DNA of 64,000 nucleotides from contig JAUQQP010000039.1 in NCBI GenBank assembly GCA_030549855.1, positions 1 through 64,000 on the forward strand, given 5' to 3'. Below, piece after piece: positions 51,258-53,884 of this stretch. The position numbers and the translations under genes are program-made. Source of the DNA: Cyanobacteriota bacterium SRBZ.bins.94.201705 (lineage in GTDB: Bacteria > Cyanobacteriota > Cyanobacteriia > Cyanobacteriales > Cyanobacteriaceae). Within the stretch, counting starts at the first letter, position 1. Each line of letters starts with the position of its first letter. The notes beneath the pieces were generated by a model. The model had not been told where the DNA came from and searched no databases. It saw only the letters and a program-made list of their open reading frames with translations.

Positions 51258-51818
51258 ATGTTTAAGTCCTTTTTCCTTCGGATAGTAGCCTCCCTCATTA
51301 TAGCCCTTAGTTTATGTGGCTGTGTTTCCACCACGGCTGCTGGTTTAAAGGCATATGTGGATGGTGCTGACGGCTATCAATTCCTTTATCCTATTGGTTG
51401 GATACAGGTAGACGTAAAAAATGCTAACCAGGGGGTAGATGTAGTTTTCCGGGATTTGATAGAAAGAAGTGAAAATCTGAGTGTCGTTATCAGCCAAGTA
51501 GACAAAAATATCAAATTAGAAGACTTGGGTAGTCCTTCTGACGTAGGATATCGTTTTATGCAACTGGTTAACCAAAATCCCAACAGTCAAATTGAGGCAG
51601 AATTGATTGCCGCAGAGAAAAAAGAGGAAAAGAAGCAGAACTATTATCTGTTAGAATATAGGGTTAAACAGCCTGATGGCAATTATCGTCACAACATAGC
51701 CACCGTTGCCACCAAAAACGGCAAACTTTACACCTTCAATATTTCTACCACCGAAGCCCGTTGGTCTCAAGTGGAAAACCTGTTTAAAACCATGGCTAAG
51801 TCTTTTTCCCTCTCCTAG
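51258..51818 (+). CDS. CyanoP (PsbP-like photosystem II lipoprotein)
   Basis: 186 aa. Lipoprotein signal: hydrophobic 10-19 then lipobox L19-C20-G21-C22 with the lipidated Cys22. The mature part matches the PsbP domain: [59 protein letters not shown] and a final [10 protein letters not shown]. CyanoP attaches to the lumen side of photosystem II and affects its assembly. It precedes maf by 14 nt. Confidence 0.92.
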
Positions 51819-51832
51819 GGTTGCCACCAGTT

Positions 51833-52447
51833 ATGATTAAGTTTGTACTTGCTTCTGCCTCCCCTGCCAGGAAAAAGCTACTAGAAACCGTGGGTATTAA
51901 CCCCATCGTCACCCCCAGTGACTATGATGAATCCTGCGTCAGCCTCTCCAAACCCTATGATTTAGCCGCCACCCTAGCAGAAAGAAAGGCCACTGTGGTT
52001 GCTAAACTCTACCAAGATGCCTTGGTGTTAGGGTGTGACTCCCTTTTGGAAGTAGAAGGACAAATCTATGGTAAACCCTCCGACGCCAAGGAGGCCATCT
52101 CCCGTTGGCAACTGATGCGTGGCAAGAAGGGTCTACTTTATACCGGTCATGCTTTAATAGATACTACCCAACAAAGAAAAATCGTCCGTTGTGCTGTAAC
52201 TGAAGTGTATTTTTCTAATATCACAGACGCAGAAATTGAAGCCTATGTGGCTACAGGTGAACCACTTAGGTGTGCCGGTTGTTTTGCCTTGGAGGGGAAA
52301 GGGGGATTGTTTGTGGAGAGGATTGTGGGGTGTCACAGTAATGTGATTGGCTTGAGTCTCCCCCTTCTGCGTACCATGTTAGCAGACCTGGGTTACACTG
52401 TTAGTGACTTTTGGGAAGAAAAATCCCTCAATTGTGGCGTAAACTAA
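51833..52447 (+). CDS. Maf-like nucleoside triphosphate pyrophosphatase
   Basis: 204 aa from the ATG at 51833 (the open frame also begins with TTG at 51821). House-cleaning enzyme that hydrolyses non-canonical or methylated nucleotides to monophosphate. [13 protein letters not shown] is the P-loop-like start; [16 protein letters not shown] carries the metal-binding Asp; a GxG(K)GGLF(V)E loop is visible ([10 protein letters not shown]). Which of dTTP, UTP or CTP derivatives is used is not clear. Confidence 0.88.
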
Positions 52448-52472: not shown

Positions 52473-52778
52473 ATGAACACTCTAGAACAAGTCCAGGCTA
52501 AAATCAGAGAGGGTAAAATTGAAGAAGCTAAGGCTATTGCTTTTGCCTCTCTTCTTAGAATCGAAATTGAAACCAGTAGTACTCTTGATGATAAATCCTC
52601 TTGTTGCCGGAGTATTATTGACATTTTGGAAAACCAAATCGAGCATCATTTAAAAGATGAATCTCTCACCCAGCTGCATCTTCAAGAAGTACAAAAATCC
52701 CAGGAATATCTGGTTAAAAACAGTAAGACTTTTCAACATTTGCTATCCTGTTTGCAAAAGATTGATGAGATTATTTGA
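52473..52778 (+). CDS. Unknown protein, paralogue of the next gene's N-terminus
   Basis: 101 aa, predicted all-helical, no signal peptide or transmembrane part. The pattern MxxLExVQAKIREGKIEEAKAIAF followed by LLRIEIETSS is echoed in the following gene (YEEFRELLKEGKNREAFLLAL, LQLTIKTASS). Two cysteines (C44, C45) lie before the second helix. I recognise no family. It follows maf by 25 nt and precedes its paralogue by 32 nt, so it may be one operon with nadK, cyanoP and maf. Confidence 0.7.
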   Translation: MNTLEQVQAKIREGKIEEAKAIAFASLLRIEIETSSTLDDKSSCCRSIIDILENQIEHHLKDESLTQLHLQEVQKSQEYLVKNSKTFQHLLSCLQKIDEII

Positions 52779-52810
52779 GATAACTTTCTGAGGCTACAGG
52801 GAGAAGAAAA

Positions 52811-53623
52811 ATGAGCAGCTATGAGGAATTTAGAGAATTACTGAAGGAAGGGAAAAACAGGGAGGCATTCCTTCTGGCTTTAAGTAACAGTCTCCAATTG
52901 ACCATTAAAACCGCTTCCAGCAAAACCCAACTCTCCCTAGAAACTCAAATCAATTTACTGAAGGGAATAAGCAACATAATAACCAGCCCAGAAGCTGTCA
53001 AAAATCCAAAAACTCCCCTGGAAATAGAGGTTATAAAATTTCACGAAGCACAAAAAAAACAGGCGTATCAAATATGGCGAAAAAATAGAGAAACCCTGAT
53101 AAAGATATTTCAAATAATCACAGGCAAAGACACGGAAGAAGGCGTAGAAACTGAAACAGAGAGATATGAGGGGGAAAAACAAGAATACCAACAGGAAATA
53201 CACAGTTGGCTAGACAGGATAACAGACGACATTTTAGGGGAAGAGGAGGCAATGGGAGGTGAGGAAAGAGAAGAAACCCTTTCGGCAGAAAAGGAAATTG
53301 CCCATAATAACGGCGTGTATAGGGATTCTAGCACCTCTGTGCCGAAATTGGAATTAGAAGCAGAGGAAGAGGAGATGATGATAGAAGCAGCTGCGACATT
53401 GGAATCGCCAATGGAATTGGAGGAGGAAGAGGAAGGAGGAAAAGAAGACAAACCAGAAGTAGAAATAGAAATAGGGGAGGAATGGGAAGAATGGCTAAAA
53501 GAAGATGAAGACGAAAACTCCTCTCACCAGCATCTAGAAGAAATCGACTGGCGTGAGGAAGATTGGAGTGAGGGGGAGGAGGAGGGAGAAGAAGGAGGAA
53601 TTGGGAGTAACCACAAAAGTTAA
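52811..53623 (+). CDS. Unknown protein with very acidic C-terminal tail
   Basis: 270 aa. Residues 1-105 are helical and paralogous to the preceding 101-aa protein (a GKxxEAxxxAL motif and xIKTASS). From about 120 to 260 the sequence is low-complexity and extremely acidic (long Glu runs such as EAEEEEMMIEAAA and EDEDENSS), ending in Gly/Glu/Ser. No signal peptide. Acidic tails bind basic proteins, nucleic-acid-binding partners or cations, but no function can be inferred. At its 3' end a frame-shifted small ORF carries a hydrophobic helix. Confidence 0.7.
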   Translation: MSSYEEFRELLKEGKNREAFLLALSNSLQLTIKTASSKTQLSLETQINLLKGISNIITSPEAVKNPKTPLEIEVIKFHEAQKKQAYQIWRKNRETLIKIFQIITGKDTEEGVETETERYEGEKQEYQQEIHSWLDRITDDILGEEEAMGGEEREETLSAEKEIAHNNGVYRDSSTSVPKLELEAEEEEMMIEAAATLESPMELEEEEEGGKEDKPEVEIEIGEEWEEWLKEDEDENSSHQHLEEIDWREEDWSEGEEEGEEGGIGSNHKS

Positions 53624-53702
53624 CATCACACCTCCCTGGTTTATCTTGTTACTCCTCCTGTTGGCGGCTACCATAAGTTATCTGATTGTCACAATTAGCT
53701 AA
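53601..53702 (+). CDS. Possible 33-aa single-helix membrane peptide
   Basis: TTG start in the +1 frame relative to the acidic protein, overlapping its last 23 nt. GAAGGAGG lies 2 nt upstream, closer than usual for a start. The product is MGVTTKVNITPPW followed by a hydrophobic helix (FILLLLLLAATISYLIV). It could be an independent peptide or, if ribosomes slip in the purine-rich run before it, a membrane anchor fused to the acidic tail. Not seen as a known photosystem peptide. Confidence 0.3.
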   Translation: MGVTTKVNITPPWFILLLLLLAATISYLIVTIS

Positions 53703-53884
53703 GCCGACTATTCCACTTCATTTCCTCCATCTCAATCCCAGGCAACTCATTTAAACCGGAAAAGAAGCCAGCCATTTTTTTTTTTGTAATTTTCTTGCTC
53801 ACCCGGGATATTTGAGTTATCATCAAATAATAGGAAGATCTCCCTAGAGGGGGGTTATTTTTTTTGAGAGGGTAATAGGAAGAG
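53703..53884. other. Intergenic region before speA, nothing recognised
   Basis: 182 bp; contains poly-T runs and the speA leader (GGTAATAGGAAGAG before the ATG). No small gene seen. Confidence 0.4.

Follow-up and report, generated by a model that had tools for sequence, protein, structure and literature searches.

What are the two genes that follow cyanoP and maf in this cyanobacterial genome, and does the hydrophobic reading frame that runs past the end of the second one belong to them? The window, the 64,000-nucleotide stretch of DNA that we analysed, belongs to a cyanobacterial genome of 2.87 Mb, in which it lies on contig 27. Its + strand carries, in order, cyanoP (PsbP family, 51258–51818) and the maf nucleotide pyrophosphatase gene (51833–52447), both identified by library scans and gene-order comparison, then ORF A, ORF B, a hydrophobic stretch in the +1 frame and a hairpin at 53837, followed by speA. 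Translation, alignment and AlphaFold2 modelling describe ORF A (52473–52778, 101 amino acids) as a bare family domain with the predicted element order H-H-E-E-E-H, and ORF B (52811–53623, 270 amino acids, stop codon TAA at 53621–53623) as the same family domain in residues 1–106 with an acidic tail in residues 107–270. The +1-frame ORF, which extends from a GTG at 53568 to a TAA at 53702 and ends in ...TKVNITPPWFILLLLLLAATISYLIVTIS, has an Arg/Lys-rich start and then a hydrophobic helix of about 20 residues. The anatomy proposed by the earlier note, with A, B, an acidic tail and a +1 helix, is thus present in every listed part.

A and B are true tandem paralogues, as judged from profile matches and a joint alignment. 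A profile built on A also recovers B in relatives, and finds the B of the window at E 6.6e-11. The domains of the two proteins align as one family of 30 sequences, both window proteins among them, and T34, H69 and N83 (A numbering) are invariant in 30 of 30 shared domains. The earlier suggestion of tandem paralogues with a common N-terminal motif is borne out by these matches, and we regard the paralogy and the conservation of the domain as established. A tree of the two genes has little resolution: the majority of B rows group together, as do the majority of A rows, and a few A/B pairs look locally duplicated or converted, so that the split between A and B, as read from the aligned sequences, is not one clean duplication.

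The family is spread patchily but widely across the sampled genomes of the phylum, with the A profile finding the shared domain in 32 of 291 genomes and 21 of 115 genera. B was detected in 17 of 40 genomes of relatives at the first search pass; with a better B profile, 14 of the 15 genomes of the window's bacterial family carry it, nearly always adjoining A. Nostocaceae-like genomes have a single, tailless A-like gene, and the tail therefore appears dispensable for some roles of the family. Two metagenome-assembled genomes, one of them a Geminocystis, gave matches in a named genome collection, and the viral contigs and plasmids that were searched gave none. Scans of A and B against Pfam, NCBIfam, PHROGs and PADLOC returned no family, and sequence-profile searches of the PDB yielded chance-level matches and no solved relative. 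A and B are a cyanobacterial family without a name in curated libraries, in agreement with the earlier note, which had recognised no family for them.

Comparison of loci brings in a third gene, C, of about 180–350 amino acids, with the pattern TALEVNTMVV ... LDGDI ... H..GV.AGE.QWRG and no Pfam or NCBIfam match. In most genera outside the window's bacterial family it follows A and B, or the lone A-like gene of the Nostocaceae-like family (for example at loci L014, L034, L041 and L042). It adjoins A/B in about 20 of the 41 loci scanned, none of them from the window's bacterial family (Geminocystis and relatives), from whose genomes C is absent altogether. Profile–profile comparison of C with A/B scored 34.2, at a probability of 61%; none of 100 column shuffles exceeded 17.5, and the reversed profile reached 15.4. 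Three C proteins also fell below E 0.001 in a direct profile search at a nominal size of 10,000, and the C-terminal part of C repeats the A/B core T-x-LDGDI-...-H...V. Because the profile score lies far above the shuffles and direct matches exist, C is best read, from its sequence, as a divergent third paralogue with an insertion. Near the A–C pair of loci L041 (123–932) and L042 (2445–3275) both from large genomes, we also observed a conserved gene that is transcribed divergently, has a hydrophobic N terminus and lacks a Pfam match; both loci have another unnamed conserved gene 3′ of C.

Where loci of the order contain both A and B, maf precedes A in the majority of cases, often together with cyanoP. 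This gene order is established, and the location behind cyanoP–maf pointed out earlier is kept in many relatives according to the gene-order scan. One genus of the window's bacterial family lacks maf and cyanoP in the flanks examined, and elsewhere other genes occupy their place upstream of A. The linkage is therefore common, but it offers no strong clue to function.

At the other end of the locus, a terminator-like hairpin with a T run (53837–53866, + strand) lies between the +1 helix and speA, and its sequence is largely kept in the sister species. It falls largely within a stretch 5′ of speA (53761–53864) that is strongly conserved in that species; in Rfam it has no more than a weak match below threshold, to Phe_leader (E 0.46). 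The stretch is possibly an attenuator, or simply a terminator.

The tail of B (53129–53620, + strand) is rich in Glu and Asp, and its composition confirms the super-acidic character first noticed in the window. In 24 B proteins the tails contain 23–45% Asp+Glu and 0–10% Lys+Arg, with lengths among relatives from 60 to 1809 residues; full B proteins in other genera are much longer than the 270 residues of the window's B. Tryptophans are set in acidic surroundings, with flanks that are 50% acidic versus 33% for the 24 tails overall, in boxes such as EEWEEW, EDWGDW, EENWEETD and ESLWEETP, some of which are in tandem. Within the window's own tail, a WEEW box (W225, W228) and an IDW-EEDW box are conserved across relatives, and both tryptophans of W225xxW228 are invariant in 15 aligned B proteins. 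The acidic tail and the invariant Trp motif are established; tail length and number of motifs differ greatly between species. Giant acidic-tailed B proteins were seen at L110 (1336–7167) and L116 (a B copy), one of 1931 amino acids with 29 Trp and tandem ESLWEETP, the other with repeated EENWEETD. Repetition of short motifs in a predicted disordered acidic chain suggests multivalent binding. Most other genomes of the bacterial family have a B that terminates near an EDWQEE box, so the purine-rich end that underlies the start of the +1 ORF is a genus-specific extension. A purine-rich run before the frame change does exist, as the earlier note described, and consists of the codons of the acidic tail.

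We then consider the +1 helix itself. The sister species, which is the only other sampled genome of the window's genus, is organised alike (...TAKVNITLPRFISLLLLLLLAVAIWWLQWIGL): its frame-0 stop falls at the identical place, it carries a 6-base in-frame insertion, and it matches the helix at E 7e-8. The helix was not found in any other sampled genome, including the rest of the family and the order. The earlier note had named a lack of tail or helix in relatives as a refuting outcome, and here the two part company: the tail is kept in relatives, and the helix is absent outside one genus.

The helix may be an accident, an untranslated open stretch that is alike in two sister species through recent common ancestry, and we give this explanation an even chance. 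Among 152 alternative-frame ORFs that run across a gene stop in a 184-kb sample of the window's genome, the helix ranks as the most hydrophobic. On that sample, with the class set at a KD18 of 2.4 or more, 3 of the 152 ORFs, the +1 helix included, qualify, which corresponds to a chance rate of about 2% and to dozens of frames about as hydrophobic expected per genome; the helix is therefore not exceptional alone. An accident would also fit its absence from all other family and order genomes searched, a basic ORF start imposed by B's acidic codons, and a post-stop nucleotide identity to the sister of 57%, which is ordinary beside the 48–93% of other post-stop stretches nearby.

The pattern of substitutions speaks against an accident. 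Across the 19 gap-free codons aligned from GTT (53619) in the two genomes, seven changed codons are silent and four are replacing, with simulated P values of 0.002–0.005 for the silent count and 0.009–0.022 for the replacement count. Over the whole post-stop stretch, eight changed codons are silent in the +1 phase, versus two and one in the other phases. This excess of silent changes, together with an insertion that keeps the frame, is joined by two further points: neutral change leaves the frame open and encoding such a helix in about 3% of simulations, and the +1 frames of both species end at nearly the same place. Within the overlap with B, however, comparison of the sister species gives four replaced codons and one silent in the +1 frame, so that no constraint is visible in this part; it seems to set in around the TTG or farther downstream.

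The helix is either a chance product or a young micro-protein in its own right. If it is translated, a separate young membrane micro-protein with a start inside the end of B is more likely than a frameshift product. Candidate starts are GTG 53568, GTG 53553 and TTG 53601. The first and last of these lie in purine-rich sequence able to pair with the anti-Shine–Dalgarno (SD) of 16S RNA, as would be expected anyway in such a run, and the SD-like spacing for TTG 53601 is short. The Glu/Asp codons of B, read as Arg/Lys in the +1 frame, would give a hydrophobic helix running past the stop codon of B a positive-inside start that is already in place. That a new membrane micro-protein arose in this manner from the acidic tail, within one cyanobacterial genus, is in our estimate less likely than not. 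The candidate resembles the overprinted de novo bacterial small genes of PMC4683798 in being short, taxonomically restricted and placed in an alternative frame over an older gene; it differs in overlapping B only at its start and on the same strand, and in being known here from sequence alone. Like the cyanobacterial micro-proteins of fewer than 80 amino acids in PMC5126843, it would be a single hydrophobic helix of under 50 residues, but one without a match in the libraries searched, confined to one genus and known only as a reading frame. If the helix is translated, it would illustrate an uncomplicated way for acidic tails to generate membrane peptides.

Ribosomal slippage into the +1 frame towards the end of B (at AAA-A just before the stop, for instance, with GGAGG upstream) would instead yield a tail-anchored acidic fusion, as the earlier note had envisaged. 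We consider this very improbable. Both species share an identical CAAAAGTTAAC, the segment that contains the frame-0 stop, with an SD-like purine run upstream of it. Since the bases AAA-AGT-TAA are conserved in the sister, a +1 slip at this point is conceivable, but nothing else supports it. However, the SD-like run is about 15 bases from the AAA, whereas in a +1 frameshift gene of the prfB type the SD-like element lies only a few bases before the slippery codon and stop, and AAA-AGT-TAA is not known to be a +1 frameshift site. The sister species does not retain the alternative GGG-A near the purine run. The shift would have to be +1, no long homopolymer is present, and no relative has the helix in frame with B. 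The continuation in the +1 frame is kept in the one sister species and is absent from the other genomes searched. An acidic segment beside the helix on the cytoplasmic side would also be unusual.

Turning to the shared domain, its fold and the disorder of the tail are model predictions. In the AlphaFold2 model of A (mean pLDDT 87), two short helices are followed by three strands and a long helix; that of B has the same domain, mostly at pLDDT 68–88, and a tail mostly under 50. With its predicted three-stranded sheet, the domain is not all-helical, which corrects the earlier description of A as a helical protein. Foldseek returned nothing under E 0.28, and VIA-align gave no clear fold. The size of the domain and its order of helices and strands in the predicted model are like those of YbaB/EbfC (PF02575), and HP0035 (3f42), a member of the YbaB family, ranked second in VIA-align (Z 5.0, rmsd 5.2 over 75 residues). 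A relationship to these nucleoid-associated proteins, with B a DNA-binding protein whose acidic tail masks itself, is nevertheless highly unlikely, given that the Z score is tied with unrelated chains in a range that VIA-align calls uninformative, that Foldseek is silent at the limit above, that YbaB/EbfC has no sequence or profile similarity to A/B and lacks the acidic tail that the window's B has, that PF02575 is not among 25 of the 26 Pfam families listed for members of the A alignment, and that the window's genome has a separate true YbaB. Homology to YbaB was dropped at a profile–profile probability of 2%, in a comparison for which an E. coli YbaB sequence served solely to select YbaB ORFs.

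The reading that we prefer, held tentatively and at a little under even confidence, is that A and B are two of three paralogues, that B is a multivalent scaffold or chaperone-like hub that pairs with A, and that the +1 helix is genus-specific. The family would comprise A, B and C, each built on the small helix/three-strand/long-helix domain, with C missing and A and B remaining in Geminocystis and its relatives. A and B may pair through the shared domain, while the negatively charged tail of B, with its repeated acidic-Trp motifs, could bind a basic or grooved partner in several copies, B thereby acting as a hub for a candidate client; the +1 helix would be an addition 3′ of B in one genus. 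A scaffold role for B is probable in light of tail composition and motif conservation. With no curated name and Trp-studded acidic tails of up to about 1800 residues, the A/B/C family is a clear place to look for an undescribed scaffold or chaperone together with the client it serves.
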